Part shown: piece by piece, positions 4,001-51,793 of the stretch
Layout of the letters: each line of letters begins with the position of its first letter
Position numbering within the stretch: the first letter of the stretch is position 1
Source: Limihaloglobus sulfuriphilus
GTDB lineage: Bacteria; Planctomycetota; Phycisphaerae; Sedimentisphaerales; Sedimentisphaeraceae
Direction of reading: 5' to 3'
Assembly: GCF_001999965.1 (NCBI RefSeq)
Contig: NZ_CP019646.1
Coordinates: forward strand, 1,736,001-1,800,000
Length of the DNA stretch: 64,000 nucleotides
Notes under the pieces: generated by a model
Seen by the model: the letters and a program-made list of their open reading frames with translations, nothing else
Database searches by the model: none
Told to the model about the DNA's origin: nothing
Translations under genes and position numbers: made by a program

Positions 4001-5497
4001 ATGTTAATTAAACGGCGTAATTTTATGAAGTCTATGGGTTTAGGAGCCGCGGCATTAGGTCTGGGGCAAACCTCATCACTGGCAAATATTTCAAACCAAA
4101 CAAAAGTTCCCCGAAAAAAACCAAATGTTATAATTGTTTTTGCCGATCAGCTCAGAAAACACGCTGTGGGCTGTTACGGCAATGATTTTGTTCGGACTCC
4201 CAATATTGACGCCCTGGCCGCAAACGGAATGCGTTTTGATCACGGCATATCAAACTGTCCGACCTGTGTGGCAGCAAGGTCAAACCTGCTTTCGGGCCAG
4301 TATGCCAGGACATGCGCAGGCTCCAGGCTTAATGAAGTCGTTTCGCATATAGGCCGCGATGACCGCAAAAAATTCAAAGACCCCACCCTGGCAGAAGAAT
4401 TCAAGAAGCTGGGCTATAAAACGGCTCAGGTAGGTAAATGGCACATCGATACCCGCCCGTCACTTCTTGGTTTCGACGAGAGCATGATTGTCGGCAGAAT
4501 TTTTACTAAAGGAAATTTCTGGAAAAATGAGGGCCAGTCTTATGATGTTGACGGATTTACCGCCGACCATGAGATTGACGCGGTCAATAATTTCATTAAG
4601 GAAAACAAGGACGAGCCGTTTTTTATGTACTATAACATAACTTCGCCGCACATGCCGATACTTGATGTTCCGTATCAATACTCCCATATGTACAACCCAA
4701 GCGAGGTTCCTTTGAGGCAGAACGTGTGGAAAAACGGAAAACTGCCCTACAATGAATATTGGTTCCACATATACCTTTGGCTTCACGGCTGGGGGATTGA
4801 TTACAAGCCTACAACAGCTAAAATACCGCCGGGATTCAGCCTTAGAGATGTTGCCGCTCTGTATTACGGTTCGGTTACCTGGGTTGACGACCTGTTGGGC
4901 TCTATGATGAACACGTTGAAGCAAAACGGTCTTGAAAATGATACAATTATAATATTTTCAGCGGATCACGGCGACCAGCTGGGCAGCCATCACCTCTGGA
5001 ATAAAGCCAGACTTTATGAAGAGTCCATAAATATACCCATGATTTACAGCTGTCCGGGCAGAATTAAAAAAGATGTAAATACCACTCAAACAGCGACTCT
5101 TATAGATGTGATGCCTACACTGCTTAGTCTCTGTGGGGCGGATATACCGCAAAGTGTCCACGGACAGGATCTTACGCCTATACTGAAAGGCGAGAAAACC
5201 ACTTTAGACAGGGATTATGCATTTGTAGAAACATCTTATGGTAAAATAGGCATACGCACCCCCACCCATCTTTACGGGGCATCTCTGGACAAAGATGACA
5301 GGGAAATAGAAAATATCAGGTATAAATTTTTCGACATTGAGAATGATCCGTATGAAAAGAATAACATGGTAAACACATCTGCCCAGAAAGGCGTGGCAGA
5401 TGAACTCCGTGACAAACTGATTGCCTGGGAAAAGAATACGCCAAGGCTGGAAGGCGTAAAATATGACCCATTTTTTTACAGAGACAACAACTTTTAG
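4001..5497 (+). CDS. Tat-exported S1 sulfatase with CxAxR active-site motif
   Basis: A 498-residue formylglycine-dependent sulfatase (alkaline-phosphatase superfamily) that hydrolyses sulfate esters of a polysaccharide or its fragments outside the cytoplasm. The twin-arginine signal is at the start (KRRNFMKSMGLGAAALGLG). The metal-site region PNVIIVFADQLR is at 41-52. The modified residue is C89 in C-V-A-A-R93. Known sulfatases mostly have Pro at the third position; Ala is tolerated by the anaerobic radical-SAM maturase. A metal-site cluster SADHGDQLGSHHLWNK lies near 325-340. It is the first gene of a + strand operon, 12 bp before the GH99-like gene. The closest relative in the window is the sulfatase at 15344-16840, which shares the ADQ/SDQ variant and the GDxLGSHHLWNKARLYEE/D stretch. 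Confidence 0.93.
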   Translation: MLIKRRNFMKSMGLGAAALGLGQTSSLANISNQTKVPRKKPNVIIVFADQLRKHAVGCYGNDFVRTPNIDALAANGMRFDHGISNCPTCVAARSNLLSGQYARTCAGSRLNEVVSHIGRDDRKKFKDPTLAEEFKKLGYKTAQVGKWHIDTRPSLLGFDESMIVGRIFTKGNFWKNEGQSYDVDGFTADHEIDAVNNFIKENKDEPFFMYYNITSPHMPILDVPYQYSHMYNPSEVPLRQNVWKNGKLPYNEYWFHIYLWLHGWGIDYKPTTAKIPPGFSLRDVAALYYGSVTWVDDLLGSMMNTLKQNGLENDTIIIFSADHGDQLGSHHLWNKARLYEESINIPMIYSCPGRIKKDVNTTQTATLIDVMPTLLSLCGADIPQSVHGQDLTPILKGEKTTLDRDYAFVETSYGKIGIRTPTHLYGASLDKDDREIENIRYKFFDIENDPYEKNNMVNTSAQKGVADELRDKLIAWEKNTPRLEGVKYDPFFYRDNNF

Positions 5498-5509: not shown

Positions 5510-8155
5510 ATGCGCCTTTTGATATTTCTTTTAAAGGTAGTTTTTTGTTTTGCCGCACTATCCGAAAACAAGGTTTGGTGGGGTTATGAAGATGACAACT
5601 GGGATGCAGCGGGTAACTGGGCGGCTGAAGGTTCGCCGACTTTGGCTGATCAGGTCTTTATAGACCATCGCCCCGCAGGAACATATACTTATCCCGTTTT
5701 AACAGACCTAAACGCTGACGCCAAGTGTGCTGTGCTGAAATTATCGCAGTACGGCAGCGGCGGGCGGCTTGACATTACGGGCGGAAAGCTCTCTGTGGGG
5801 AATCTGGCGTATATCGGAATAGGCGCATCATTTGCCTGCGAACTCAACATCAGCTGCGGTGAATTGATTGTAGCCAATAATATGTTTGTCCCGTATGGAG
5901 GAGAGACAACCGTCACCATGACCGGCGGCAATGTGTCCATCGGCGGCTCTTTGTCAATGATGAATCAGACCATAGCTGATGGTTTTATCAATCTCTTAGG
6001 CGGTACGATAGAAGCGGCCGCACTGAGCTGGCCTGCCGGAATCGCCCGTTTTGGCCATATTAACATTGAAGAAGGCGCGCTGAAAATAAACAGCGCAGCT
6101 GACTACACCGCTCAGCTTCAGGCCCTGATAGATTCCGGCGATATAACCGCCTACGGAAGCGGCACCACCCGCTACGACTGGATAAGCCACCCCAGAGCGG
6201 CATTTGAAATCGAATATAAGGGCACATCGACTATACTTACCGCCGCGATTGAGGATGTTAATAAGGCGTGGAATCCCTCTCCGGCAGACGGCGGCTCTGT
6301 GGACACAACAGGTGAAAATGTAATTCTGACATGGTCGCCGGGAGAGAATACTCTACTGGCAGACGGCCATGATATTTATCTGGGCGCTAGCTTCGATGAT
6401 GTTAATCAAGCAGGCAGAGCCGAGCCTGAATTTAAATCTAATCAAACCGATACAGGTTACATTCCATGCCCGCAGCTCAAGGCGAACACAACTTATTACT
6501 GGCGAGTTGACCAGATCACCTCATCCGGTATTGTAAAAGGGAATGTTTGGAGTTTTACAACAAATAGTTTAATTGAGGATGGATTATATACTTCTGCATT
6601 TGGCTATGATCTGAACAGCAATATTGTAAGCACAAGTGTTTTCAGCTGGTATTCATCAAGCGGCGGCCAGGTCAGCGGGCCATGGCTGCCGCTGGAAGGC
6701 AGGGAAAACTGGACGGGAGATGTACTCTGGTGGAAAAGTCAGATTAAGCAGATGATGGCGGCCAATATTGATGTTCTCTACGTTCATTTGATAATGGAGC
6801 ATTCATGGCATGATCAAAATAGAATAAATCTTTTTCAGGCACTCAATGAATTGCGAAAAGAAGGATATGATGTGCCGAAAGTCGCTCCGTTCCTCGATCC
6901 TCTCATAACCTGGGACGGGGCAGCGAGGCCCTATCCCAATCTGGCAACAACTGCCGGCAAGGATGAGTTTGCCGCACAGTATATTCGTTTTTTCAATCAG
7001 TATTATTCTGTTAATGAGGATGCGTACGCAGATGACTACATAGCCCGAATTGACGGGAGAGTTGTGCTTGATACCTGGCATGTTCATTTGAGCACGGTAA
7101 ATACGGCTTCTTTAACGAGACAGGATTTGGCACAGAGACTCTCTGCGGAATTTGCAGCTGAGCACGCGATATTCAGCAGCGGGATCTACATGGTTGGAAC
7201 AGACGGCTGCGCTTTGAGTTTTGAAGATGAGCAGGTAGTCCAGTTCCAGCAGCATGCGTATTTCGACACAACCGATTATAATGGTATCAGAACCGTTCAG
7301 GTTAAAGGCGGATACTGGGACCAGAATATTCGCGAGCCGGGTTACTGGCTGGCCCGCAGCGGCGGAACGCATTATAAAAATGCCTGGAATCTGGTCAATG
7401 CCGATTCGGCAATAAGCAGAGTATATATCGAAAGCTGGAATGAGTATGACGAGGGCTCGGGTATTTACGCGGCTGATTGTGTAAATTCTCCCGATCTTTT
7501 TGATGGAAGGTATTATACGCCCGGTTCGGAAAATGATATCTGGTCCGAAAGTAATGACCCTTATGAATACATAAAAACCACTGCTGCCGGTGCCGGGATT
7601 TTCAATGATACAGACAATTACAATGCGCGGATACTCTGGCACAACATACCTGATAAAATTCGGGCAGGGGAGATGCTGACAGCTAACATTATTGTCCAGA
7701 ACAGCGGAGATTTTTCATGGACAGCGGCCAATAACTACAAATTAGGGCAAAAAATAACCGAACCGTCTGAAGTATTATTCGGCAGCAATCGTTATCTGAT
7801 TGATGATAATTCAGATGAGATAGGTGTTTATGCCGAGATATTCAGAGGCAGACCTGTTATATTTGAGCTGCAAATAGCCGCTCCCCAGCAAAGCGGAGTT
7901 TACACCGCCCACTGGCAAATGCTGCGGGAAGGCGTTTTGTGGTTTGGCGAGCAGTTGTCCATTGATATAGAGGTTCTGGCCAAATCTGATCTTAATTACG
8001 ACGGCGTGGTAAATGGCGGGGATTTTAAAATCATAGCTGATTCATGGCTGAGCCGGCAATGCTGTCCCGATGACATTAGTAACTTCGATATCAATGAAGA
8101 CGATAAAATCAACCTGCTTGATTTTTCTGTATTAGCACAGGACTGGCTCAACTAA
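5510..8155 (+). CDS. secreted modular GH99-like glycosidase with dockerin-like C-terminus
   Basis: An 881-residue extracellular protein. After a short signal peptide comes a roughly 230-residue Gly-rich beta-strand module starting WWGYEDDNWD (about 23), shared with 8201-11428 and 24825-27413. Next is a Fn3-like module at about 253-353 (NPSPADGGSV, YYWRVDQI, NVWSFTT). The likely catalytic domain spans about 357-697 and resembles GH99/DUF5010-type barrels. It has WTGDVLWWKSQIKQMM and, at about 639-649, YIESWNEYDEG, a motif typical of that group. About 705-815 resembles an NBR1-type Ig fold (VQNSGDFSW...HWQM). The C-terminal 60 residues are two EF-hand-like repeats (DLNYDGVVNGGDFKIIADSW; DINEDDKINLLDFSVLAQDWL), a dockerin type I pattern. 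AAGGG precedes the ATG. The likely substrate is an alpha-mannan-like glycan, but this is uncertain. Confidence 0.8.
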   Translation: MRLLIFLLKVVFCFAALSENKVWWGYEDDNWDAAGNWAAEGSPTLADQVFIDHRPAGTYTYPVLTDLNADAKCAVLKLSQYGSGGRLDITGGKLSVGNLAYIGIGASFACELNISCGELIVANNMFVPYGGETTVTMTGGNVSIGGSLSMMNQTIADGFINLLGGTIEAAALSWPAGIARFGHINIEEGALKINSAADYTAQLQALIDSGDITAYGSGTTRYDWISHPRAAFEIEYKGTSTILTAAIEDVNKAWNPSPADGGSVDTTGENVILTWSPGENTLLADGHDIYLGASFDDVNQAGRAEPEFKSNQTDTGYIPCPQLKANTTYYWRVDQITSSGIVKGNVWSFTTNSLIEDGLYTSAFGYDLNSNIVSTSVFSWYSSSGGQVSGPWLPLEGRENWTGDVLWWKSQIKQMMAANIDVLYVHLIMEHSWHDQNRINLFQALNELRKEGYDVPKVAPFLDPLITWDGAARPYPNLATTAGKDEFAAQYIRFFNQYYSVNEDAYADDYIARIDGRVVLDTWHVHLSTVNTASLTRQDLAQRLSAEFAAEHAIFSSGIYMVGTDGCALSFEDEQVVQFQQHAYFDTTDYNGIRTVQVKGGYWDQNIREPGYWLARSGGTHYKNAWNLVNADSAISRVYIESWNEYDEGSGIYAADCVNSPDLFDGRYYTPGSENDIWSESNDPYEYIKTTAAGAGIFNDTDNYNARILWHNIPDKIRAGEMLTANIIVQNSGDFSWTAANNYKLGQKITEPSEVLFGSNRYLIDDNSDEIGVYAEIFRGRPVIFELQIAAPQQSGVYTAHWQMLREGVLWFGEQLSIDIEVLAKSDLNYDGVVNGGDFKIIADSWLSRQCCPDDISNFDINEDDKINLLDFSVLAQDWLN

Positions 8156-8200: not shown

Positions 8201-11200
8201 ATGGCTAAAAGAAATATAAATTCCCTCATTTTATCGGCTCCAGCTATTTGTCTGCTATTGTTCTTTACAACTGCCTCCTGCATTGCGGTATTTGCAGAAA
8301 ACAAAATCTGGTGGGGTTATGAAGATGACAACTGGGATACAGCGGGTAACTGGGCGACTGAAGGCGTGCCGGGTTCTGCTGATCCGGTATTCATAGACCA
8401 TCGAGCCTCGGGTGAGTTTAAGTATCCTGTTATAACAGATGCAAATACCGATTCCAGATGCGCGGTACTGAAGCTCTCGCAGTACGGCACAGGCGGGCGG
8501 CTTGATGTTATCGGCGGCGTACTTGCTATTGAGAGCCTTGCCTATATCGGTGTCGGCGCAGCATACGAATGCCAGCTGAACGTCAGCGGCGGAGAGATGC
8601 TTGTCGGCACGCACATGTATGTGCCGTATGCCGGCGTAACGTCTGTTAATATAACCGGCGGTAAAGTAAGTGTTTCCGGTTCTCTGGTTTTTTGTCATCA
8701 AAGCGTCGCGGACGGCTTTATCAATCTGGCCCGCGGCACATTGGAAGCGGGGGCATTGCTCTGGAATACGGGCGAGACCCGGTTCGGACATATAAACATA
8801 GAAAACGGTAAGCTGATAATCAACAGTACAGCAGACCGAACCGGACAGCTTCAGGCTCTGATAGATTCCGGTAATATAACAGCTTACGGCTCGGGTTCAA
8901 CCCGTTATAACTGGGTAAGCCACCCCAAAGCGGCATTTAAAATCGAATATACCGGCACATCAACCGTACTTACCGCCGCGATTGAGGATGTTAATACGGC
9001 GTGGGATCCTTCGCCGGCAGACGGCGGCTGTGTTGATGTTACAGAGGGCAGCGCCAACCTGGCTTGGCTCTCTGGTGATAATACCCGCCAGGAAGCCGGG
9101 CATGATCTGTACCTGGGGGCATCGTACGAAGAAGTAAATATTGCAGAGACAGATTCACCTTGTTGGCAGGGCAGATTGGACAGCAGCAGTTTTGAAACCG
9201 GGCCGCTTGATTTCCGTAGCGGCTACTACTGGCGTGTTGATCAGATTGACACCGCCGGAGAGGTGCACAGGGGTGATGTCTGGAGTTTTACTACTTTGCC
9301 TTCCCGAAGACAGGCGAAGGAGCTTTTCCCGCCGGATAACGGACTTTTAGGCGAATCGCTGATAAACGATCCGAATACAAAGATTTCATGGCAGAGCGGA
9401 GAAGATGCCGTAACACACAAAATCTATTTTGGAACCTGTTATGATACAGTAAGCGAAGCAGAGAACGATTGCCTTATTACCTTTAAAGGAAACATTGATG
9501 AGCCGGCACGGGAATTTTCTCCGGGAGCACTGCAAAAGGGATCAGAGTATTTCTGGCGTGTTGATGAAATCGACCATAACGGTGGGCTGACAAAAGGAGA
9601 AGTCTGGTCTTTCTGGGCAGGTTACGATGTTCACAATACCAGAGTCGCATCCCAGGGATTCAATGCCTGGTACAAGGTTGATCCGGATAAGGCCTGGGTC
9701 GAGCAGCAGGCGGAGATCGCACTTGAGATGGGGTGTGAAATATATAAATTTCAGTTGAAACCTGATAAAAATGAGAATTATGAAGATGGCACAGCAGAGC
9801 CGCAGACCGCCGACACCGCCGAGGTAACAAGTCTGCTGACAAGGGTTCAGAATGTCCCTGTCTGGCAGAGAGTACTTGATATGCCTTTTCGATATACCTT
9901 GATATGGGCTTATCCTGTTTCCGGTTTAAACCTTCATGACGGGTATTCCCAAGAGGAGGCCCAGGCGGAATATCAGGAGCTCTACGACCTGACCATATAC
10001 CTGCTGCTGGAATATCAGAATACCAACCGTTCTTTCATGCTGGGCAACTGGGAGGGGGACTGGCACCTGCTTGAGGGTTATGATGATACGGTTGAGCCGC
10101 GTCCGGAGATGATTGAAACGATGAAACTGTGGTTTGCCAACAGGCAGGCGGCGGTAAAGGATGCCAGGAATTCCCTCCCGCAGATACAGGGCGTAAACGT
10201 ATATCATTATGTTGAAATGAATAAAGTTCAATCCGCTATTGACGGTGTTGTCGGAGAGGGTGCTTACCGTCTGGTAAATACTGTTCTGCCCTATATAACT
10301 GTTGATGCGGTATCATATTCGGCGCGTAATGCGACGCATTTTATCAGCGAGATGCCAGAGCGTCTTTATACGCACCTTGATTATATCGAATCAAACGCAA
10401 ACTTTACAGGTTGCTGGCCGTTTGAAAAGGCTGTTTTTATTGGTGAATACGGCACCGGCACTGTCAGTGAAAACGTACTTGCTATAAAGGCTGCCTCTAA
10501 CTGGGGCTGTCCGTTTATACTGTACTGGTCGATATATGCAACCGAGCCGAGATTTGACTTTTATTTTGTCGGGCCGGACGGGTCAAATACGGAACAATAC
10601 GATCTGCATCAGCAGATACTTTCTAAAATCAACGCCCAAAAGGAAATATACAATATATATCTGAATAGGAACCCCTATGAGTCATGCCTGGAATCTCTCA
10701 TGAACCAGTTTGATCGGATCAGCGTTTCCGGCTTGATGTCTTATATTGTCAATTCTGACGCTTCAAAAATCGCCATCGGCAGCCGCGAATTTCTGCGAAA
10801 TCTTTTCATAGCTCTGCTGCACACAAACGATGAAACAACCGCTCAGTTTTCTGATATGCTTGACCAGATAGATGACTCGACGATAACCAGATGGCAGGCC
10901 ATTGAGCTGATAATGAACGGGTCTGAATTCAGAGATTTGATAACAGATGCTCAGTTTGCAAGGTATCTCTGCGAGAATGTCCTACTTGTAGAGCCGGAAA
11001 ATGTTGACCCTGAAGATCTTACGGCAGTTGAGCAGCGTCTCGAATCAGAATCAAGATTTGCCCTCTGGCAGGAGTTTTTAAATGATAGCAGGGGCTGCAT
11101 GAACGCGATTCGCAGACGATACAGTAACCGCAGCTCGAATTACATTGACTGGCAGTACAGCTACGGCGTAACCGATGCCGCGAAATCCAGGTATCTGCCC

Positions 11201-11428
11201 AGTTTGAAACGTTTCTGGTGTCGGCTGTCAGAGCCGGGAAGTTATACTGCGGATTTTGACGGGAACTGTGCCGTTGATATAGCGGATTTCCAGATATTGG
11301 CCCAAAACTGGATAAGCGGGCCGCGGGATTATTTGCCGGGCGATATCAACGGCAGCGGAAATGTCGATTTCCACGATTTTGAAATTTTGTCTCAATATTG
11401 GCTTGCAGCTTCAGTTACTGGTGAATAA
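8201..11428 (+). CDS. secreted multidomain candidate glycoside hydrolase with dockerin-like C-terminus
   Basis: A 1075-residue exported protein (signal to about 31). It has the shared WWGYEDDNWD module (about 33-260) and two Fn3-like modules (about 268-366 and 367-473). The barrel-like domain at about 474-800 is homologous to the proteins at 12811-14109 and 14106-15320. Conserved stretches are GNWEGDW (about 614), YHYVEMN (about 668), FIGEYG (about 745) and NWGCPFILYW (about 767). The two Glu in VEMN and GEYG fit an acid/base and nucleophile pair on strands 4 and 7 of a clan GH-A-like barrel, by inference only. About 835-920 resembles DUF4214 (REFLRNLFIALL). The end (about 1017-1075) is a dockerin-like pair (DFDGNCAVDIADFQILAQNW; DINGSGNVDFHDFEILSQYWL). 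It sits 45 bp after the GH99-like gene. Confidence 0.75.
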   Translation: MAKRNINSLILSAPAICLLLFFTTASCIAVFAENKIWWGYEDDNWDTAGNWATEGVPGSADPVFIDHRASGEFKYPVITDANTDSRCAVLKLSQYGTGGRLDVIGGVLAIESLAYIGVGAAYECQLNVSGGEMLVGTHMYVPYAGVTSVNITGGKVSVSGSLVFCHQSVADGFINLARGTLEAGALLWNTGETRFGHINIENGKLIINSTADRTGQLQALIDSGNITAYGSGSTRYNWVSHPKAAFKIEYTGTSTVLTAAIEDVNTAWDPSPADGGCVDVTEGSANLAWLSGDNTRQEAGHDLYLGASYEEVNIAETDSPCWQGRLDSSSFETGPLDFRSGYYWRVDQIDTAGEVHRGDVWSFTTLPSRRQAKELFPPDNGLLGESLINDPNTKISWQSGEDAVTHKIYFGTCYDTVSEAENDCLITFKGNIDEPAREFSPGALQKGSEYFWRVDEIDHNGGLTKGEVWSFWAGYDVHNTRVASQGFNAWYKVDPDKAWVEQQAEIALEMGCEIYKFQLKPDKNENYEDGTAEPQTADTAEVTSLLTRVQNVPVWQRVLDMPFRYTLIWAYPVSGLNLHDGYSQEEAQAEYQELYDLTIYLLLEYQNTNRSFMLGNWEGDWHLLEGYDDTVEPRPEMIETMKLWFANRQAAVKDARNSLPQIQGVNVYHYVEMNKVQSAIDGVVGEGAYRLVNTVLPYITVDAVSYSARNATHFISEMPERLYTHLDYIESNANFTGCWPFEKAVFIGEYGTGTVSENVLAIKAASNWGCPFILYWSIYATEPRFDFYFVGPDGSNTEQYDLHQQILSKINAQKEIYNIYLNRNPYESCLESLMNQFDRISVSGLMSYIVNSDASKIAIGSREFLRNLFIALLHTNDETTAQFSDMLDQIDDSTITRWQAIELIMNGSEFRDLITDAQFARYLCENVLLVEPENVDPEDLTAVEQRLESESRFALWQEFLNDSRGCMNAIRRRYSNRSSNYIDWQYSYGVTDAAKSRYLPSLKRFWCRLSEPGSYTADFDGNCAVDIADFQILAQNWISGPRDYLPGDINGSGNVDFHDFEILSQYWLAASVTGE

Positions 11429-11462
11429 TTCGGGTATTATTTGCAATATGAACATTATTTTA

Positions 11463-11490
11463 TTGCATTTTACCCAAATAGTCATATAAT
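11463..11490 (+). promoter_or_regulatory. sigma-70-like promoter for the regulator gene
   Basis: TTGCAT at 11463-11468, a 16-bp spacer and a perfect TATAAT at 11485-11490 lie in the 145-bp gap before the regulator ATG at 11574. This suggests the regulator can be transcribed separately from the upstream operon. The leader would be about 75 nt. Confidence 0.55.
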
Positions 11491-11573
11491 TAAGAGCTGT
11501 AAGTTATTGTGTGAAATAAAAATATTAAAGATTAGATCAACACCTTATCCTTATTTGAGACAGCAAAATACAT

Positions 11574-12794
11574 ATGAAAAAGACAGTGGATTTCGACAAA
11601 TTAGATTTATCAATGAAGCTTGACCGCGGCAGGGGCAAAACCCAGCCTCTATACAAGCAGATTCAGAATCATCTTAAAGAGCAGATCAAGGGCGGCAAGA
11701 TTCCGGTTGGCTCCCACCTTCCTTCTATTTCAGAGATGGTCAAAAGGTGGAACGTTGATTACCAGACCATAAACATGGCTCTTGAGCGTTTGGGTGAAGC
11801 CGGATATCTCCGCCGTCAGCCCGGCAGGGGCAAGGGGCCTGTAGTATTACGCACAATGCAGCATGAGCACACAATAATGTTCATAAGACCCAATAATGAC
11901 TCGCTGTCTTTGGAAATTACAGAGGGGATATTAAAATTCACCCTGGAAAAAGGGGTTGAGTTCATTATTCAGGAAGCCATGAACTCGGATGAGAGTTATG
12001 TCCATATGCTCTCTCACACGATACCCAACGTTGAGGGTATCATTGTTTTGCCCGATGAGAAGCCCGAGTACTACAAAGCGGTAAAAGACGTTCTGGCTTC
12101 TGGCAAAAAAATTGTTTTCGTTGACAGATTTCTTGAAAACATACCCGTAAGTTCTGTGACACTTGATCACAAGGGCGGGGCGTTTCAGGCGACTAAACAT
12201 CTGCTTACCCGCCACGGACAGCCGGTATATTGCTTTGGCCTTAGGCCTTACAGCTCGTCAAAAGCTCGATATGAAGGCTGGGCTTGCGCTATGAGAGAGT
12301 ATCACTTCATAGATGTAGAATCGTATATAATTAAGGATCCCACTATAGATAATTGTTTTTCCGATGACGCTCAAAGAGATATAGATGCTTCCACTAAAAT
12401 AGCTTATAATTTTCTTAGCAAATCTGACAGCAGCCGCTTTAGCATTTTCTGTCCCACAGGTTTTGAAGTTGTGGGAATCTATCAGGCCGCTGACAAACTG
12501 AATCTTAAAATCGGCCGTGATGTGCATGTTGTAGGTTTTGGGGATCATCCTCTCTGCCGCAATCTGCATACGCCTCTGACCAGCGTTCTGCAGAAAAGCG
12601 AACAGGTTGGTTATGAAGCCGCTCATCTGCTGCTGATGGAACTTAACGGTTTGGTAAGCTCGCCCGTAAAGGGGATGCTGCCCGCCCAGCTTCAGATTCA
12701 TGAAAGCAGCGGCATCCCGCTTACAGCCGGCGGTAAGAGCACAAGTCAGTTTACTTATGAATCACGCAGGCAGATGAGTCTGGCATCTACGTAG
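11574..12794 (+). CDS. GntR-type HTH / LacI-type sensor hybrid transcription regulator (AraR-like)
   Basis: A 406-residue cytoplasmic regulator. Residues about 20-95 form a GntR winged helix (QPLYKQIQNHLKEQIKGG, PSISEMVKRWNVDYQTINMALERLGEAGYL). The rest is a LacI/GalR-type periplasmic-binding fold that would bind a sugar (VEGIIVLP, KIVFVDRFLE, YEGWACAMREY, DVHVVGFGDHPL, LTSVLQKSEQVGYEAAHLL). This architecture is that of the arabinose repressor AraR. It is placed exactly between the + strand arm (4001-11428) and the convergent minus-strand arm (24658-12811), ending 16 bp from the latter. It is thus the obvious candidate controller of both. The ATG has only a weak Shine-Dalgarno. It has its own promoter at 11463-11490. 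The ligand is unknown. Confidence 0.88.
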   Translation: MKKTVDFDKLDLSMKLDRGRGKTQPLYKQIQNHLKEQIKGGKIPVGSHLPSISEMVKRWNVDYQTINMALERLGEAGYLRRQPGRGKGPVVLRTMQHEHTIMFIRPNNDSLSLEITEGILKFTLEKGVEFIIQEAMNSDESYVHMLSHTIPNVEGIIVLPDEKPEYYKAVKDVLASGKKIVFVDRFLENIPVSSVTLDHKGGAFQATKHLLTRHGQPVYCFGLRPYSSSKARYEGWACAMREYHFIDVESYIIKDPTIDNCFSDDAQRDIDASTKIAYNFLSKSDSSRFSIFCPTGFEVVGIYQAADKLNLKIGRDVHVVGFGDHPLCRNLHTPLTSVLQKSEQVGYEAAHLLLMELNGLVSSPVKGMLPAQLQIHESSGIPLTAGGKSTSQFTYESRRQMSLAST

Positions 12795-12810
12795 TTCGGC
12801 AGACACGGCC

Positions 12811-14109
12811 TTACTCAGACAGCAGCCATTTGAGGGCTTCTTCTCTGAATTCTGCCTGTGTTGGGTTTCTCCTGAAATCGCTGCGGCAGCGGTCTATAAA
12901 ATCATTTGCCCGTCGATAGAAGTTCTTATGCACTAAATATGCCGGCTGTTTTTGATTATCTTTATCAATAAGTGCCAGTCCGCTTGGATTTGCGCCGCCC
13001 TCTTCTGATTCATTGTCATACATCTGCCAGTAAAGCGCAAACGGACAGCCCCACGACAGTGCCGCAGCAGAAGCCGTTCGGGTAAACTCTGCCTGCTGCT
13101 GTGCAGTAATAGATATTTTCTGGGAGCCTCTGTGAAAACGACGAAAGCCGTACTCGCCGATGAAAACCCTTTTATCCCATGGGTATTTTTTGTCTGTTGG
13201 CGGCATGTGCTTCTCGATAAAATCAAGAGCCTTGAGCAAAGAAGTTTTCATTGTTTCCTTTCTTTTTTCCATGGTCAGATTACCTTCCCAGAAACTGCCC
13301 AGAGAGCTGTAGCATGAAAAAGAGACAAGATCAACATTTACATACGGCAGCACACTGTTGGTGAGTGTCTTTTTGCCTTTTTTTATCGCATCTTCAACTA
13401 ATACCGTTTCCATGTAATGAAACACATCGACATTTTTATGCGGCGTATCACGCTTTGCGTTATCAACTGCAAGCTGGCGGGTGTTCATTCTCTCAATCAT
13501 TCCGTCAAAGGCCTTTTGGCTGATTTCCCTGTCGCGGCTGTACGGCTCTCCCATTATCGCCCAGTCGCCTTCCCAGTGACCCAGGAAAAATGTCTTGCCG
13601 GAATTGTCAAACTCTGTCAGCAGATAGCATGTCAGGTCGTAAATCTGCTGATATTCATCAATACGCTGGCTTTCACTGTAGCCCTGCGCCCAGTCGTAAT
13701 GCGGTTTCCACTCTCCATCTTCAATCGGAGAGCAGTGTGCCCAGAAAAAGTAGTAATCAAAAGGCATCCGCAAGACTTTCCTGTATGAAGGCTCCTTGTC
13801 AAGAAGCGATGTAAATGAATTTATGTCCGTATTTTGCGGCAGCATGTAATGATCTGAATAATCTGAATCTATCAGAATCTTTAATATATTTGAACCCATT
13901 TCTTCGATCTGCATAGCCGTCTCGACAAGGCGTGTTTCTTCGGTGAACTGATATTTCGGCTGAAAAGTCTGGGTGCCGAGAACATAATTAAACGGAGGAT
14001 AGGTTTCTTCGGCGAAACTATAACCAATTTGCCAAAGAAGAAAGACCAGGGTTAAAGTCATCAAATTATGTGTGTAAATTTTTAATGTCACTGTTTGCCT
14101 TTCAATCAT
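12811..14109 (-). CDS. candidate secreted glycoside hydrolase, family related to 8201-11428
   Basis: A 432-residue protein with a hydrophobic N-terminus (about 16-32, NLMTLTLVFLLWQIGYSFA), read as a signal peptide. The true start could be M17. The rest is one barrel-like domain homologous over its length to the proteins at 14106-15320 and 8201-11428. Conserved sites are GHWEGDW with E180, HYMET with E234, FIGEYG with E319, and WGCPFALYWQMYDNE near 350. E234 and E319 are the inferred catalytic pair. I do not recognise a CAZy family. The ATG overlaps the stop of the upstream gene (ATGA), so the two are translationally coupled. It is the last gene of the minus-strand operon and converges on the regulator with no clear terminator in the 16-bp gap. 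Confidence 0.75.
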   Translation of the reverse strand: MIERQTVTLKIYTHNLMTLTLVFLLWQIGYSFAEETYPPFNYVLGTQTFQPKYQFTEETRLVETAMQIEEMGSNILKILIDSDYSDHYMLPQNTDINSFTSLLDKEPSYRKVLRMPFDYYFFWAHCSPIEDGEWKPHYDWAQGYSESQRIDEYQQIYDLTCYLLTEFDNSGKTFFLGHWEGDWAIMGEPYSRDREISQKAFDGMIERMNTRQLAVDNAKRDTPHKNVDVFHYMETVLVEDAIKKGKKTLTNSVLPYVNVDLVSFSCYSSLGSFWEGNLTMEKRKETMKTSLLKALDFIEKHMPPTDKKYPWDKRVFIGEYGFRRFHRGSQKISITAQQQAEFTRTASAAALSWGCPFALYWQMYDNESEEGGANPSGLALIDKDNQKQPAYLVHKNFYRRANDFIDRCRSDFRRNPTQAEFREEALKWLLSE

Positions 14110-15320
14110 TTTTCGTTTTTATTTAGCCAGTCCAATAACACCTTTCGATACTCGCTGCCGGACGGGTTTCGTGCGTGTTCTGCTCTGTATGATTTTACAA
14201 ACTCTCTGCCGCGTTTCAACAGATTCTCGTGCGTAAAATAAACCGGCTGTTTCACTCCCTTGTTGTCTATCATCCAGAAACCGTAACCTAAATAGTCAGA
14301 GCTTGGGTGGTCTATTGTGTTGCAGTACATCTCCCAGTAAAGAACAAACGGACAGCCCCATTTGAGAGCGGCCTTAATCACTGTCCTTGCGAACTGGTCC
14401 TGAATCTGCGGCTGTTTGACATGTTCAAGGGCAAATCCGTATTCGCCGATGAAAACCCGCCTGCCGGGAACGTCTTTTGCCGGAAGTTTGCTTTCTATAT
14501 AATCCATCGCCTCCAGAAGCAGCTTCTTCATCTTGGTTTTGCGCTCGTCCATTGAGAGAGACGCATCATGAAACGGATAGAGCGAATCATAGCATGAAAA
14601 TGATACGTAATCCACGTTTGAATGCGGCAGGACGTTGTTTGTAAGTGTCTTGCCGCCTTTGACAGCCTTTTGAACCATGTTGACTTCAGTGTATGTGTAG
14701 ATATAGACATTTTCGTGCGGTATATCTCTCTGGGCATCTTCAACGGCTTTCTGTTTTATGTTTAGCCAGTCAATCATTCCCTCAACCGCTGTGTCACTGG
14801 GGTCTATTTTGGGGCTGTAAGGCGGATCTATCAAAGACCAGTCGCCTTCCCAGTGGCCAAAATAAAAACTCTTGCCGGTTTTATTGTATTCCCGCAGCAG
14901 GTATGCGCTCAAATCATAGAAATTATCGTACATCGCAGCCTTCTCTTCCTCTGAGAGACCGTCTTTGAAATTGATCTTAGGAGATGAGACATAAGCCCAC
15001 AGAAAATAAAAGTCAAACGGCATATCAAAAACTCTGGAGTAATTCTGGTCATGTTTCACAAGTTCGGTCAGAGAAAGTTCACTGCCCCTTGGATGCTCAA
15101 GAGAAAATTTAATGATATTTGAGCCCATATCAAGAATTCTTTGTGCGGTTTCAATCAGAACGGGCTGGTCGGTAAACTGGTAATTAGCTCCAATTGTCTG
15201 TGTGCCGACAACATAATTAAACGGCTTTTGTTCGTTATGCCTTTGACTGCCGCAGCCGGAAAGCATTGCGGAAATGACAAGCATAGATACACTTACTCTG
15301 ACAGCAGTAATTTTACTCAT
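14106..15320 (-). CDS. lipoprotein candidate glycoside hydrolase, family related to 8201-11428
   Basis: Start chosen at 15320: AGGAAAAACT lies directly before that ATG, and the product then begins MSKITAVRV with a lipobox LSGC at residue 23, giving a membrane-anchored lipoprotein of 404 residues. A longer frame to 15398 would overlap the upstream sulfatase and hide the signal. The mature part parallels the 12811-14109 protein, with GTQTIGANYQF, GHWEGDW (E158), YTYTEVN (E212), FIGEYGF (E293) and KWGCPFVLYWEMY. The gap to the sulfatase upstream is 23 bp, and the next gene starts inside its stop codon. Two neighbouring copies, one lipidated and one soluble, suggest a surface-bound and a periplasmic or extracellular version of the same activity. 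Confidence 0.78.
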   Translation of the reverse strand: MSKITAVRVSVSMLVISAMLSGCGSQRHNEQKPFNYVVGTQTIGANYQFTDQPVLIETAQRILDMGSNIIKFSLEHPRGSELSLTELVKHDQNYSRVFDMPFDFYFLWAYVSSPKINFKDGLSEEEKAAMYDNFYDLSAYLLREYNKTGKSFYFGHWEGDWSLIDPPYSPKIDPSDTAVEGMIDWLNIKQKAVEDAQRDIPHENVYIYTYTEVNMVQKAVKGGKTLTNNVLPHSNVDYVSFSCYDSLYPFHDASLSMDERKTKMKKLLLEAMDYIESKLPAKDVPGRRVFIGEYGFALEHVKQPQIQDQFARTVIKAALKWGCPFVLYWEMYCNTIDHPSSDYLGYGFWMIDNKGVKQPVYFTHENLLKRGREFVKSYRAEHARNPSGSEYRKVLLDWLNKNEK

Positions 15321-15343: not shown

Positions 15344-16840
15344 TTAAACCCAGGGCTTGTAGTGATCGCCCTTGAGTCTGGGCGTATTTTTGTCCCATTC
15401 AAGGAGCTTTTGTCTTAGATTTTTTGCTATGGCGCTTTTTCCGGCTGTTTTAGCCAGATTGTTTGTCTGATACGGGTCTTTTTCCATATCAAAAAACAAG
15501 TATTCGTCTTCCATAATGGCAGTGTCATCTTCGGATACCAAAGCCCCATAAAGGTGTTTTGGGGTTCGTATTCCGGCCTCGCGGTATGGTGTCTCAATGA
15601 AAGCGTAATCCTGCTCCAGAGAGTCTGTCTCACCGCGAAGCAAAGGCGCGAGGTTCTGCCCCTGGACGGTCTCGGGGATTTTCTCACCGCAGAGCGAAAG
15701 CAGCGTAGGCATCACATCCACCAGTGAGGCGACCTGTTTTTTGTTGACCGATGCCTTTTTTATGACTGCCGGCCATCTGAATATCATTGGAATCCGTACG
15801 GCCTCGTCGTATAGGCGGGCCTTGTTCCATAAATGGTGACTGCCTAATAAGTCTCCATGGTCCGCGGCGAAAAGAATAATTGTATTATCTTCAACCCCCT
15901 CGGCTTTTAGCGTGCTCATCAGCTCTCCGATGAGATCGTCAACCCATGTAACAGCCCCGTAATACAGTGCTGTCAGCTCGCGAAGCGAAAAGTCGGGCGG
16001 TAAATCATCATTGCCCGATTTTCTGTATCTTGGCAGGCCGCCGGTGTAAATTCCAAACCATCTCCGGTCATACGCTATCCGGCCGTCCTTTAATACATTT
16101 TTGCGAAGCGGCACCTTTTCAGGTTTGTACATCTGAGTGTATTTTTCGGGCACATCATGAAAAATCGGCATATGCGGAGAAAGAATATTATAGTAAAGAA
16201 AGAACGGCTCGTTTTTGTTTTCTTTTACATAACTCTTAACACTTTCCAGGTCGGCGTACTGATTGAGGTATTTGCCGCCCATTTCCGATTTGCGGCCTTC
16301 TGTGAGAACTTCATCAAAACCTAAGAGCGTCGGCTTTGTGTCAATGTGCCATTTACCAACCTCTGCGGTCTTGTAGCCGCTTTTCTTTAAGACTTCGGCA
16401 AGTGTGATATCGGGAAATTTCAGGCGGTCATTCCTTCCGTAGAGCCCATCTGAGCCAAGCCCTTTGGTCATCTCATTTGCTCGTGCTCCTACGCAGGTGC
16501 GGCAGTACTGGCCCGAGAGCAGATTTGACCTTCCGGGAACACATGTAGGGCTGTTTGAAACGGCGGTTTCAAATCGCAGGCCGCTCTCTGCCAGCCTGTC
16601 AATATTAGGCGTTTTCACGAACCTGTTGCCATAACAACCCAGGGAAAAACTCCGCATCTGATCGCTGAATATAATAATTATGTTTGGCTTCTTGTCAGTG
16701 CTGCCGTTCTGCGTTTGGTTTGTCGCCGTTTGTGCTGCATTATTTCGTGCTAATACTGTGGTATTTCCCGCGGCCAGTGCGGCGACGGAGAACGACATGG
16801 AAGCCAGAAAATCACGTCTGTTTGTCTTTGCGTTATTCAT
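15344..16840 (-). CDS. Tat-exported S1 sulfatase
   Basis: A 498-residue sulfatase with a twin-arginine signal (NRRDFLASMSFSVAALAAG). The metal-site strand PNIIIIFSDQMR is at 52-63, and the formylglycine motif is C100-V-P-G-R104. The second metal site is AADHGDLLGSHHLWNK. It resembles the 4001-5497 sulfatase over its length, including the less common single-Asp SDQ in place of the usual DD, so the two probably act on related linkages. It lies in the middle of the minus operon, 14 bp after the acetylesterase and 23 bp before the lipoprotein. Substrate position is unknown. Confidence 0.93.
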   Translation of the reverse strand: MNNAKTNRRDFLASMSFSVAALAAGNTTVLARNNAAQTATNQTQNGSTDKKPNIIIIFSDQMRSFSLGCYGNRFVKTPNIDRLAESGLRFETAVSNSPTCVPGRSNLLSGQYCRTCVGARANEMTKGLGSDGLYGRNDRLKFPDITLAEVLKKSGYKTAEVGKWHIDTKPTLLGFDEVLTEGRKSEMGGKYLNQYADLESVKSYVKENKNEPFFLYYNILSPHMPIFHDVPEKYTQMYKPEKVPLRKNVLKDGRIAYDRRWFGIYTGGLPRYRKSGNDDLPPDFSLRELTALYYGAVTWVDDLIGELMSTLKAEGVEDNTIILFAADHGDLLGSHHLWNKARLYDEAVRIPMIFRWPAVIKKASVNKKQVASLVDVMPTLLSLCGEKIPETVQGQNLAPLLRGETDSLEQDYAFIETPYREAGIRTPKHLYGALVSEDDTAIMEDEYLFFDMEKDPYQTNNLAKTAGKSAIAKNLRQKLLEWDKNTPRLKGDHYKPWV

Positions 16841-16854
16841 AAAAAATACTGTTT

Positions 16855-18447
16855 TTATTTATTCTCTGTTGTCAGTGGAAGATCGTAAGTCCTGAATGTA
16901 CTTGCGGGCAGTCCGGCCTTGTTAAACAGATTTGGACGGGCGGTGTTTGACCAGCCGAAACGTACATTCTTAGGTTCTTTGACTGCATCGTTTCTGACAA
17001 TAACAGTACTGTCTTCGATAACCGCCTGGGCAGGGACAAACTCATTATCTTCTCCTGCAATCTCAAAGTCGGTCAGTTTGCCGCCTTTGGCTTTCAGGCC
17101 GCCGTCTGTATGGTCAAAAAATATTCTTATAGCCTCTTTCTCGATCTTCATCGATTTGTATAGCGGCCCTGAATATACAACATTCTTTTTGCCGTACACC
17201 TTAGCCAAAGCCCAAAGTGCAAGCCTTTCGCCGACGGGTTTCTTGTCAGGGGGGTGAATATTTTCAATATCATCAACAAGGTCAGTGGTTACAACCATAC
17301 CGGTATTGGGCAGAGACAGTGTCAGCAGCTGAGCCTCCCGCAGTTCCGCGCCTATATAAGGCTCCGGATACGTCCAGGGGGCAATCTGCACATAGTAAAA
17401 CGGCATATCCGGCTTGTTCCATGCCTGCCGCCAGTTCTCAATCATAGCAGGGAATATGCTTCTGTACTCAAGTGCCTCTCTGGCGTTAGCCTCTCCCTGA
17501 TACCATATTACTCCCTGCAATGTATAGGAAATCAAAGGGTGTATCATGCCGTTAAACAGGGAAGCCGGCCCTCGGGGATTACCCGGGCCCATCGGTTCCC
17601 ATGGTTTGGGCGGCGCTTCTTTGCCGTCTTCTCTGGCCTTTTCTACTTTCTTCTCCCATTCTTTGACTCTTTCTTTCCATTCTTCCAGAGCCTGGGGGTA
17701 GCGGTTACATGCCGCGTCGTATTGTTCAAGAATGGATTTGAAGGCTTCGTGAGACCTCATGAAATCCATATCCGTCCAGCTCTGGCTTGGAGTGCCGCCG
17801 TAGGAGGACTTAATCAGCCCGACAGGTATGCCAAGCTCTTTGTAAAGTTTTCTGCCGAAGAAAAACCCTGCCGCGGTAAAGGATTTGGCTGTTTCACTGC
17901 TGCAAACCTGCCACTGTCCCGGGCAGTCGTTCTGTTTATCTTTGGCGGCATTGCGGGGGACTTCAAAAAACCGGATTTTGGGATAGTCAGCGTCTAAAAG
18001 CTCACGCTGCCAGTCGTTAACCCCCGGCTGCCACACATTTATTGCCCCCACGGTCATCTCCATGTTGGACTGGCCCGAGCAGAGCCAGACTTCGCCGATG
18101 AGTACATCTTCGAGGATTATATCGCTGCTGCCTCTCACGGCGATCTTATACGGCCCGCCTGCAGAGGGTGTCTGGAACCGCAACTCCCATTTGCCGCTAT
18201 TATCGCAGCTTGCGGTATGCTTTTCTCTCGACCAGCCGGGGGTAACGGTAACTTCCTGCCCCGGCTTATCCCAGCCCCATATCGCGGCGGAATCGTTCTG
18301 CTGCAAAACCATACCACTGCCGATAACAGAGGGCAGACGTATCTGAGAATGCACAAAAGGACATGTTGCAAAAATCAAGAAACACAAAAGCAACTGTATG
18401 TTGTTTTCGCAAATATTTATTTTTCTGGAGAATTTATATTTAACCAC
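16855..18447 (-). CDS. secreted SGNH sialate O-acetylesterase-like enzyme
   Basis: A 530-residue exported esterase that would remove O-acetyl groups from a glycan. The signal segment is about 17-34 (IQLLLCFLIFATCPFVHS). The SGNH blocks are visible: LCSGQSNMEM with the nucleophile Ser at about 127, GTPSQSWTDM, VIWYQGEANA with the oxyanion/His block, and DDIENIHPPDKKPVGERLA with the D-x-x-H catalytic pair. Length fits the bacterial sialate O-acetylesterase family, whose members in polysaccharide loci often act on acetylated plant or algal sugars rather than sialic acid. The start is GTG at 18447 with no clear Shine-Dalgarno, 14 bp after the preceding sulfatase. That suggests coupling, or a slightly different true start. 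Confidence 0.88.
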   Translation of the reverse strand: MVKYKFSRKINICENNIQLLLCFLIFATCPFVHSQIRLPSVIGSGMVLQQNDSAAIWGWDKPGQEVTVTPGWSREKHTASCDNSGKWELRFQTPSAGGPYKIAVRGSSDIILEDVLIGEVWLCSGQSNMEMTVGAINVWQPGVNDWQRELLDADYPKIRFFEVPRNAAKDKQNDCPGQWQVCSSETAKSFTAAGFFFGRKLYKELGIPVGLIKSSYGGTPSQSWTDMDFMRSHEAFKSILEQYDAACNRYPQALEEWKERVKEWEKKVEKAREDGKEAPPKPWEPMGPGNPRGPASLFNGMIHPLISYTLQGVIWYQGEANAREALEYRSIFPAMIENWRQAWNKPDMPFYYVQIAPWTYPEPYIGAELREAQLLTLSLPNTGMVVTTDLVDDIENIHPPDKKPVGERLALWALAKVYGKKNVVYSGPLYKSMKIEKEAIRIFFDHTDGGLKAKGGKLTDFEIAGEDNEFVPAQAVIEDSTVIVRNDAVKEPKNVRFGWSNTARPNLFNKAGLPASTFRTYDLPLTTENK

Positions 18448-18461: not shown

Positions 18462-20069
18462 TTAAACAATACTCTGACCTTGCCAGTTTGTCTTTTCTAA
18501 CCAGCTTTTCAGCTCATTTTGCAGTTCTTCCTTTATATCGCTGAACTCAGGGTTATCTGCAACATTTTTTAGCTCAAGGGGGTCATCTTTGAGGTTGTAC
18601 ATGTATTCGCCGCCATCTGGATAGCGGATATACTTCCAGCCCTTGCCGCGTATCATAAATGAGCCTTTTGTTTCGGGCAGCACCTTGCGGTCTGCCGATG
18701 GGTTGCCTTCTATGCGTTCAGAGAACTTATAGGGATAGGCCTCTGCAGGGTCTTTTTTTTCGGTCATATAATCAACCAGGCTCTGGCCCTGGCAATGAGT
18801 CGGCAGCGTTTCGCCCGTGATATCCAGGATTGTAGGCATAATATCCGTGTGGTCAACTGCCATATCGATATTTTTAGGCCTGAACATCTTGGGATACCTT
18901 ATAATCAGCGGCACCCTCACAACTTCTTCATAAAAAGCGGTTGTGCTCTTCCATGCCATGCCGTGCCCGCCGGCCATGTCTCCGTGGTCCGCGGCGAAAA
19001 TTACCAGTGTGTTATCAAGCTCGCCGGTTTCTTCGAGGACTTTTATTATCCGCCCGACCTGGTCATCCGCCAGCTTTGTCAGTGCATAGTATATCCTTAG
19101 AAACTCCCGCATTGACGGGTTGTTCATGCCCGGCTTATCAATATCGGCAATATTGCGCCGCGACCATTCGTTTTTGAAGCGTTTTTCCAGTGTATCTCTG
19201 TTTTCCGGCAGTTTGATCTTGAGTGGATCAAACATCTCATAATACGGCGAGGCTACTACATAGGGATCGTGCGGCGCGTTTATGCCGCAGGTGACCATAA
19301 ACGGCTGATCACCGTTACATACGCTCCTGAGTGTAGATACCGCGTGGTCGGCCACCCTGACATCAAATTCCTGTGTAACCGGCAGTTTGAGACGGCCCAT
19401 TTTTGTTGTGAACTGGGCAAAGTCTTTTCCCTTCCACAGTTCAGGGTCCATCTTATCCACCGCGGCCTTAAATGGCGGCCATATATCAACCGGAAAATAC
19501 ATGCCGTACCAGTTTTGATAGCCCTGCGGGTCTGACCTGCTTACCTTTTCGAATACGTCCTGCATAGCGTCAAGATGCTCAGGAAACTGGCGGTACATGT
19601 CGGTGTAGTAGGGCATGTCATCGCCTTCGAGGTGCCATTTGCCGTAGTGGTGCGTTTTGTAGCCTTTCTGCCAGAGAATCTTCTCGGTGGTAACATCGTT
19701 TAGAGTGATTCCTTTCTGGTTCCAGCCAACGTTAAGTGTGATACCGTGCTGGTGGGGATAAAGGCTGGTTATCGCTGACATTCGGGTAGGCGAGCAATAG
19801 GGCGTAGGGCAGGTTGCCTGCGTAAAGACAACACCCTCCTTCGCCAGACGGTCAATATTCGGAGTGGGAACAGGGCCGCCGTCGTAACTGCATATCCCCG
19901 CCGCGAGCTGGTCAAGCAGAAAGAACAGAACATTGGGCGTTTTCGATTTCTGCTTATCAGCGTTATTGGCGATCGGTTTTGCGTTTGCCGAGCAGCCCAA
20001 AGAAAAACCAAGAGTGCCCAGAACGGCACCTCTTCCGGCTTTTTTTAGAAATTGCCTGCGTGTATTCAT
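18462..20069 (-). CDS. S1 sulfatase, Tat-type, possible lipoprotein
   Basis: A 535-residue sulfatase. The N-terminus TRRQFLKKAGRGAVLGTLGFSLGC combines a twin-arginine motif with a lipobox-like SLGC at about 23-26, so it may be lipidated after export. The metal strand PNVLFFLLDQLAAG is at 45-58, and the formylglycine motif is C92-S-P-T-R96. AADHGDMAGGHGMAWKSTTAFYEE supplies the second metal site, and HYGKWHLEG is the conserved KWH strand. GAGGTAAC precedes the ATG. It lies 34 bp after the GH42 gene in the minus operon. Which sulfate it removes cannot be told from sequence. Confidence 0.93.
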   Translation of the reverse strand: MNTRRQFLKKAGRGAVLGTLGFSLGCSANAKPIANNADKQKSKTPNVLFFLLDQLAAGICSYDGGPVPTPNIDRLAKEGVVFTQATCPTPYCSPTRMSAITSLYPHQHGITLNVGWNQKGITLNDVTTEKILWQKGYKTHHYGKWHLEGDDMPYYTDMYRQFPEHLDAMQDVFEKVSRSDPQGYQNWYGMYFPVDIWPPFKAAVDKMDPELWKGKDFAQFTTKMGRLKLPVTQEFDVRVADHAVSTLRSVCNGDQPFMVTCGINAPHDPYVVASPYYEMFDPLKIKLPENRDTLEKRFKNEWSRRNIADIDKPGMNNPSMREFLRIYYALTKLADDQVGRIIKVLEETGELDNTLVIFAADHGDMAGGHGMAWKSTTAFYEEVVRVPLIIRYPKMFRPKNIDMAVDHTDIMPTILDITGETLPTHCQGQSLVDYMTEKKDPAEAYPYKFSERIEGNPSADRKVLPETKGSFMIRGKGWKYIRYPDGGEYMYNLKDDPLELKNVADNPEFSDIKEELQNELKSWLEKTNWQGQSIV

Positions 20070-33007: not shown

Positions 33008-34267
33008 TGTTCATTGGTACTGACCTATGAATTTGATTAATCTCAGCCAGCTTTTTTTAGCCGGTAGCCGGTGATTCTGGCCTGGCGAAAATAGCGTGTT
33101 TCAATCTCGGTTGGCACAGAATTGGCATCAGGTGCCGGTCTTTCAGGCAAGTTACCGAAGAATACATCGTCGGGACGATTGCCGTCTAATGACATGTGCG
33201 GCCTCCAGGAATTGTACCAAACCTGGAATTCATTACATAAATCATGCAGATGATCTATGCCTTTTATGATCGGAACTCTTTTGAGCCAGCAATATTTTAA
33301 GGTTTTATTTGCCCTTTCAGTGACAGCGATCGAACCTTTCTTTCCGATGGCACCAAGTCGGTGTTTAATCCTGTTGTTATTCTTCAGGCACTCTGCGAAA
33401 GCCTCACTTATAAATACGCTGCCCTGGTCAGATATGATGTGCTTTGGAGAACCATACTTTTCTATGGCTTCATCCATCGCATTGATTACCCAGCCGGCAT
33501 TGGGCCCTTCCAGCGGCACTGCTGCCATGATCTTGCGTGAGAAGTGATCGATAATAACGCAGACATGCACCTCCAATAAGCCCCATTTATAGACAATTGT
33601 AGTATCTATCGACCAGACATGGTTTGGGTACCAGGCAGGGATTGAACGGGCTTCGGTTTTATCTTCTGTTTGCTTGGGTTTAGGTGCTTTGCTTGGCGTT
33701 TTTCTCGGTTCCGGCCTGTTGAGTATATTTCTGACAGTCGAGGCTGAGAGAAAAACGCCCAGGAGTTTGAGTTGGTTGGCAATTCTGAACCTGCCCCACC
33801 CTTCATTGGCTTTCGTTATCTGCCAGACCAGAGCAGCCAACTCGGCAGGTGTTATATTGGCAGGAACAACTGCCTGAGCTTTTTCTTCTATGTTCTTGAG
33901 CCAACGATAAAGCGTTGATCTTGCTATGCCGAGGTGCTCGGTGACTCTTCGCCTTGGTATCTGGAAGGCTTCCATGTAGCAGAGAATGAACAACTTTTCG
34001 CGAATAGTATAACGTTTTTTATTATTCTGCTTTTTGAGGGCCTTCTGTAAAATAGATACCTGTGTCTGCAGCTGTGTAATCTTGTCACGAAGAAAGATAA
34101 GCTCTTTATCCTTCTCGTAAATATCCATCCCGGCAAGTCGTTTGAGACTGCGTTTTCGCGCCCTTCCAGAAAACCCGGCAGCTAAGACAGCGGTCTTTAC
34201 AATCAATCTCAAAGCAATGTTGATAATCTCTATTTTTTGGGACATATTTTTCTGCTCATAATGAACA
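33008..34267 (-). mobile_element. IS3/IS481-type insertion sequence, about 1.26 kb
   Basis: Ends were inferred from an 8-bp perfect terminal inverted repeat, TGTTCATT (33008-33015) and AATGAACA (34260-34267), and from where similarity to the deleted relative at 44014-44286 begins and ends. It contains one intact transposase gene. No target duplication is visible (CCAC on the left, TTGC on the right), which fits rearranged flanks: another transposase fragment adjoins on the left. Its right end lies inside the coding frame of the PEP-CTERM protein at 34230-34925. Confidence 0.7.
33043..34245 (-). CDS. rve-type integrase/transposase
   Basis: A 400-residue transposase with an N-terminal coiled-coil-like region (about 42-75, DKELIFLRDKITQLQTQVSIL) and a helix-turn-helix (about 95-118, IPRRRVTEHLGIARSTLYRWL). 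The retroviral-integrase core has D214 in WSIDTTIV, D273 in SDQGSVFIS and E310 in AVTERANKTLKYCW, followed by YNSWRPHMSLDGNRP. All three acidic residues and the reading frame are intact. The start at 34245 is supported by the deleted relative at 44014-44286, which preserves the same first codons (MSQ.I.IINIALR). It overlaps the last 16 bp of the PEP-CTERM gene on the same strand. Confidence 0.9.
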   Translation of the reverse strand: MSQKIEIINIALRLIVKTAVLAAGFSGRARKRSLKRLAGMDIYEKDKELIFLRDKITQLQTQVSILQKALKKQNNKKRYTIREKLFILCYMEAFQIPRRRVTEHLGIARSTLYRWLKNIEEKAQAVVPANITPAELAALVWQITKANEGWGRFRIANQLKLLGVFLSASTVRNILNRPEPRKTPSKAPKPKQTEDKTEARSIPAWYPNHVWSIDTTIVYKWGLLEVHVCVIIDHFSRKIMAAVPLEGPNAGWVINAMDEAIEKYGSPKHIISDQGSVFISEAFAECLKNNNRIKHRLGAIGKKGSIAVTERANKTLKYCWLKRVPIIKGIDHLHDLCNEFQVWYNSWRPHMSLDGNRPDDVFFGNLPERPAPDANSVPTEIETRYFRQARITGYRLKKAG

Positions 34268-51737: not shown

Positions 51738-51793
51738 GGTTTACCACTTAAATTAAAATTTATTAAAGAGTTAAATTCGTCTATGTACAAGAA

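Follow-up and report, generated by a model that had tools for sequence, protein, structure and literature searches.

Three genes within a single locus of the analyzed stretch of DNA (64 kb in full length, hereafter the window) very probably encode exported retaining beta-glycosidases of the clan GH-A type, which belong to an unclassified family and act on sulfated glycans, possibly beta-mannosidic ones. The assignment to clan GH-A-type glycosidases is much stronger than the assignment to beta-mannosides: the cleaved bond could be beta-mannosidic, at somewhat below an even chance. The family is apparently undescribed, but of a well-known kind.

Three Paralogous Genes in One Locus

Copy A (positions 8201–11428 of the window, plus strand) codes for a protein of 1075 amino acids, which comprises, in order, an N-terminal signal peptide, an N-terminal repeat-like module, two Ig/Fn3-like stretches, the family barrel, a DUF4214-like stretch, and a dockerin; all modules apart from the barrel and the dockerin were assigned by eye. 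The barrel occupies residues 473–813 (9617–10639, plus strand; domain boundaries approximate) and contains a WEGDW motif (10049–10063, plus strand). Copy B (12811–14109, minus strand; 432 amino acids) consists of a Sec signal followed by the family barrel, with the WEGDW motif at residues 179–183 (13561–13575, minus strand). Copy C (14106–15320, minus strand) has a lipoprotein signal (MSKITAVRVSVSMLVISAMLSGC) and then the barrel, with its WEGDW motif at 14838–14852 (minus strand). The longest open reading frame of copy C is open to 15398, and the start at 15320 gives a clean lipobox (LSGC, by eye); copy C and the start of copy B share 4 bp.

Pairwise comparison revealed 43% identity between B and C over 393 amino acids (E = 2e-114), 34% between A and B (E = 4e-46), and 33% between A and C (E = 3e-49). 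By these sequence identities (33–43%), the three copies are true paralogs, as the first-pass annotation of this DNA had proposed, and the motifs it listed, WEGDW included, are present in all three. That annotation named no strand; copies B and C lie on the minus strand, and a plus-strand reading of 12811–14109 and 14106–15320 was ruled out, the frames being full of stops.

A search of the complete genome (3.87 Mb) with a DNA pattern for WEGDW (TGGGARGGNGAYTGG) gave five hits, all of them within family members; the reversed control gave none. Two family copies beyond A, B, and C are encoded in this genome. The fourth copy (locus L008) forms the C-terminal domain of a 1496-aa protein, with a GH2 gene alongside. 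The other duplicates B, with which it is 97% identical across the first 294 residues, and is interrupted by an IS21-type istA/istB insertion. It lies in a duplicate of gene B and the SASA esterase gene (L007:7087-12777; G000:C1, about 3725.1–3730.8 kb), which has neither copy C nor a sulfatase between them. Identity of the split copy to the window gene is 98.4% in the 5' part but only 88.4% in the 3' part, a pattern that would fit conversion of one half.

Predicted Fold and Invariant Residues

The AlphaFold model of copy B is a (beta/alpha)8 barrel with eight strands (pLDDT 94.3, pTM 0.94), the TIM barrel that the first-pass annotation had suggested looking for in 12811–14109, and the AlphaFold2 model of the copy A domain (m6f2c7fd94e6a) has the same fold, also with eight strands (pLDDT 89.8, pTM 0.90). 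In copy B (residue number = model number + 32), strands 1–4 span residues 44–47, 75–80, 119–124, and 173–177, and strands 5–8 span residues 228–235, 261–265, 315–320, and 358–360.

Three glutamates are invariant in all 115 aligned members: E180 in HWEGDW (codon 13570–13572, minus strand), three residues past strand 4; E234 (13408–13410), near the end of strand 5; and E319 (13153–13155), within strand 7. The corresponding residues of copy A are E618 (strand 4), E672 (strand 5), and E749 (strand 7). Also conserved in 115 of 115 members are Y53, K77, W179, G181, D182, S265, G318, and W361. Since E180 follows strand 4 and E319 lies in strand 7 of the model, the clan GH-A pair would be E180/E319. 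Two conserved glutamates, E234 and E319, had previously been assigned to strands 4 and 7; this stands for E319 but fails for E234, which ends strand 5 in the model, so that the earlier pair joins strands 5 and 7.

The [FY]xYxE motif noticed earlier is that of E234, which is part of an E-x-N sequence in 114 of the 115 relatives. Copy B is the sole exception (E-T-V, with the Val codon 236 at 13402–13404 of the window), and its IS-split duplicate likewise has Val at this position. At strand 4, Trp precedes the Glu in every member (115/115), replacing the usual clan GH-A Asn, and the residue one position ahead of this Trp is N or H in 114/115. An Asn before the acid/base is usual in clan GH-A without being universal (GH26). 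Both the strand-4 Trp and the third invariant Glu on strand 5 were counted against the clan GH-A reading.

The nearest PDB folds of both models are clan GH-A glycosidases, beta-mannosidases being prominent among them, and together with the models of copies B and A they support a clan GH-A-type barrel. The top matches (GH164, GH5_18, and GH5_4) have approximately 10% identity and a TM-score of approximately 0.5, a level of fold similarity that does not identify a substrate. GH164, represented by the Bs164 beta-mannosidase of Bacteroides salyersiae, is the top fold match (E = 5e-9) and resembles the family in its barrel, in its acid/base on strand 4, and in its nucleophile on strand 7 (PMC7105311). 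In contrast, no GH164 chain in the PDB was found by the 115-member profile at E ≤ 10, the family has no trimerization domain, and Asn-159 of Bs164, the residue preceding the acid/base which binds the sugar O2 in GH164 (PMC7105311), is replaced by Trp. GH5_4 and GH5_18 form the second group of fold matches; the family differs from GH5 by its low identity (10–15%), by the absence of N-E at strand 4, and by the lack of a Cellulase match among the families listed. Further close folds are a GH5 exo-mannosidase and the GH39 protein PslG (E = 5e-8, approximately 12% identity, no sequence match). The viral models closest in fold carry a GH5 annotation.

Alternatively, E234, with the Asn of E-x-N, might take part as the acid/base in a mechanism that departs from clan GH-A. 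E234 is as invariant as E180 and E319, the Asn is kept in 114/115 members, and the N-E signature of the clan is missing at strand 4, where W-E is found. We nevertheless regard such a mechanism as improbable, because in clan GH-A families strand 4 carries the acid/base and strand 7 the nucleophile (E160 and E297 in Bs164; PMC7105311), the positions of E180 and E319, and because the close folds all belong to this clan. Profile comparisons with the window GH42, the neighboring GH2, and the remainder of the 1496-aa protein yielded no convincing match and hence no help in placing the acid/base.

A Broad and Apparently Unnamed Family

Relatives were searched in one genome per species, and the best 80 of 286 were retained. 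These 80 come from Bacteroidota, Verrucomicrobiota, Armatimonadota, Abditibacteriota, Hydrogenedentes, Sumerlaeota, Lentisphaerota, Acidobacteriota, Planctomycetota, and one gammaproteobacterial MAG. In the phylum of the window, Planctomycetota, the family was detected in just 4 of 392 sampled genomes. Relatives on haloarchaeal plasmids (27–29% identity) are labeled "hypothetical protein" in RefSeq. Accessory domains fused to relatives include CBM2, F5/8 type C, GDSL esterase, laminin G, and a T9SS tail. Two relatives are fused to a GDSL-type esterase (L044:9440-12217 and L015:8681-11077); the first additionally carries CBM2, combining barrel, binding module, and esterase in a single protein.

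Among the 115 aligned members, Pfam and NCBIfam models gave no convincing match, and Cellulase (GH5) was matched by none of the 115 at E ≤ 1 among the families listed. A weak similarity of copy B to SLT_2/MltB (E = 0.05–0.08) was attributed to chance, as only one member shows it. The 115-member profile matched no PDB chain over its length; the single partial match was to GH5_4 chain 6xsu (E = 1e-3), in which the strand-7 GEYG of the family aligned with a GEFG stretch of the enzyme. The strings GHWEGDW and GNWEGDW did not occur in the open-licence papers searched. The family is apparently unnamed in Pfam, NCBIfam, the PDB, and open-licence papers, CAZy not being among these sources. The lack of a convincing domain match and of a close solved structure agrees with the first-pass view of an uncharacterized hydrolase family.

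A different explanation is that these proteins constitute an already named CAZy family, or a divergent branch of GH5, for which Pfam and NCBIfam have no model and the PDB no structure. The GH5-like fold and strand-7 motif would fit, and a family this common could have attracted notice before. Given the absence of convincing Pfam (Cellulase included) and NCBIfam matches and of any full-length PDB match, the "hypothetical protein" label of the plasmid relatives, and the lack of the two motif strings in the open-licence papers searched, we consider this explanation unlikely. GH195 from a Polaribacter PUL (PMC13063451) is similar in its marine setting, its S1 sulfatases with an endo-acting GH, and its T9SS-secreted form. 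However, it is described as GH99-related, specific for sulfated alpha-mannan, and partnered by GH92 (PMC13063451), whereas the present family has a GH-A-type barrel and GH130/GH2 partners; GH195 was therefore ruled out as the identity of the family.

Genomic Context and Delivery

Two convergent runs of genes meet at 12.8 kb of the window. The plus-strand run consists of an S1-type sulfatase (4001–5497), a dockerin protein of 881 amino acids (5510–8155) whose N-terminal module is the same as that of copy A, copy A with its own dockerin, and a transcription regulator (11574–12794) with a GntR-type DNA-binding and a LacI-type sugar-binding domain. A WbsX/GH99-like assignment of 5510–8155 was rejected, as the match spans merely 15 residues. 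The minus-strand run consists of a GH42-type beta-galactosidase-like gene (20104–22191), an S1-type sulfatase (18462–20069), a SASA-type carbohydrate acetylesterase (16855–18447), a second S1-type sulfatase (15344–16840) immediately upstream of copy C, and then copies C and B. Because spacing is tight (14–34 bp gaps and the 4-bp C/B overlap), this run may represent an operon.

Sulfatases are concentrated here: the genome has 78 sulfatase matches, and the 64-kb window accounts for 8 of them, where approximately 1.3 would be expected if they were evenly spread. Farther along the minus strand (49278–57042), genes for sulfatases and for two GH141-like beta-helix proteins alternate and give way to fucosidase-like and GH38 genes, in what looks like a separate cluster for fucose-containing sulfated glycans. 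Another minus-strand gene (34971–43844) encodes a 2957-aa protein with a dockerin; its neighbors encode an integrase-type transposase (33043–34245) and a Fic-domain protein (44533–46047).

The three delivery modes proposed earlier are all present, namely a dockerin on A and, as read from sequence, a Sec signal on B and a lipoprotein signal on C. The best-matching type I dockerin repeat of copy A is at 11336–11404 (plus strand), with the first repeat just upstream, and this dockerin exceeds the cut-off only jointly with its neighbor in frame (31.5 bits). Two cohesin matches (5e-13 and 4e-10) were found in one 2069-aa frame of the same genome (G000:C1:1003339-1004697), which also has weak dockerin matches. 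Dockerins were located at 46 places in this genome. The 2069-aa protein is a possible scaffold of a planctomycete dockerin–cohesin system.

Recurrent Trios and Divergence of the Copies

Multiple copies also occur together in marine Bacteroidota. Seven genomes were checked, six with three copies and one with four, all within approximately 15 kb. Typically, the first copy has an anchor-like N-terminus, the second a Sec-type signal, and the third, of approximately 820 amino acids, a weak G8-like N-terminal match and a T9SS tail, which is Pfam-confirmed in L053 and similar-looking in most others. In the phylogenetic tree, B and C are sisters, B on a long branch, and A lies on a distant branch, its placement being unsure because several branches are long. 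The Bacteroidota copies fall into three distinct clades and those of the window group elsewhere, so the trios are read as separate expansions; orthology of the window trio to the Bacteroidota trio is unsupported by this tree, in which some branches are long.

The proposal that one activity is placed at three sites is no likelier than division of labor or decay, because B and C are sisters with A on a distant branch, and because B lacks the Asn that 114/115 members have after E234. We would give an even chance to the view that the copies have diverged in specificity or that B is losing function. It is consistent with the position of A apart from B and C, the long branch and missing Asn of B, and the disruption of the second B copy by an IS21-type element. 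On the other hand, the three glutamates and the barrel are kept in A, B, and C, and trios with differing delivery recur in Bacteroidota.

Substrate Clues from Neighboring Genes

Neighbors of the family in Bacteroidota loci include sulfatases, SusC/D, hybrid two-component regulators, a sodium symporter, GH130, and GH2. GH130 homologs were detected in 17 of 85 loci, 15 of them at least 45% identical to the GH130 of L053, and GH2 in 13 of 85. Beta-1,2-mannoside phosphorylases are the closest match of the L053 GH130 (3e-61), and beta-mannosidases that of a GH2 from another locus (L021; 2e-60). GH130 adjoins the family in Bacteroidota, Verrucomicrobiota, and one Planctomycetota genome (G172) of the same class as the window, in which approximately 40 bp separate the family gene from the GH130 gene upstream, and a sulfatase and an XylR-like regulator are close to the pair.

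In a set of 12 genomes, each with 0–5 GH130 genes, GH130 was located within 12 kb of the family in 7, compared with 0.27 expected by chance; this figure shows association and is no independent test, because 6 of the 7 are Bacteroidota loci chosen beforehand, and the counts are not independent, since the GH130-bearing Bacteroidota PULs are related to one another. The genome of the window has five GH130 genes, none near the copies, which leaves the beta-mannoside reading a hypothesis of moderate strength. The other enzymes of the window (GH141, GH38, and fucosidase-like) indicate no single sugar, and the neighbors tallied in non-Bacteroidota loci were mostly uninformative.

It is nearly an even chance that the enzymes are clan GH-A glycosidases of some other substrate, such as a beta-glucan, xylan, galactan, or uronide, the neighboring GH130 and GH2 attacking a different portion of that glycan. 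The nearest folds include GH5_4 endoglucanases, which also provide the sole sequence-profile match, one relative carries CBM2, GH9-like proteins adjoin two loci, and the window has GH42, GH141, and fucosidase-like genes without GH130. Against this, GH130 recurs in Bacteroidota, Verrucomicrobiota, and same-class Planctomycetota, there as the immediate neighbor, and the GH2 partners are also beta-mannosidase-like. The most specific proposal, that an atypical GH-A family cuts beta-mannosidic (perhaps beta-1,2) bonds of a sulfated polysaccharide and passes the products to a GH130 beta-mannoside phosphorylase, the trios having arisen separately in Planctomycetota and Bacteroidota, is tentative and, taken as a whole, rather doubtful.

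Proposed Role and Significance

We infer the following scheme from the predicted barrel, the invariant residues, and the gene neighborhood. The sulfatases and the acetylesterase of the locus would unmask a sulfated, acetylated polysaccharide, in which the family barrel would then cut a beta-linked sugar. E180 would serve as the acid/base and E319 as the nucleophile of a retaining reaction, and E234 would line the active site. Exo-enzymes, GH130 or GH2 in many relatives, may finish the products. Copy A would be mounted on a dockerin–cohesin assembly, B would be a soluble exported enzyme, and C would be lipid-anchored.

The interest of the family lies in its breadth, its unusual residues (W-E at strand 4 and E-x-N at strand 5), its recurrent trios, and a pathway that can be tested: given the conserved GH130 and sulfatase neighbors, the substrate hypothesis could be examined with one purified protein. 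If true, the beta-mannosidic pathway through GH130 would be a degradation route not described in the literature searched. If the members of this family are glycosidases of sulfated glycans, they would supply a step so far missing from the turnover of algal or microbial polysaccharides.
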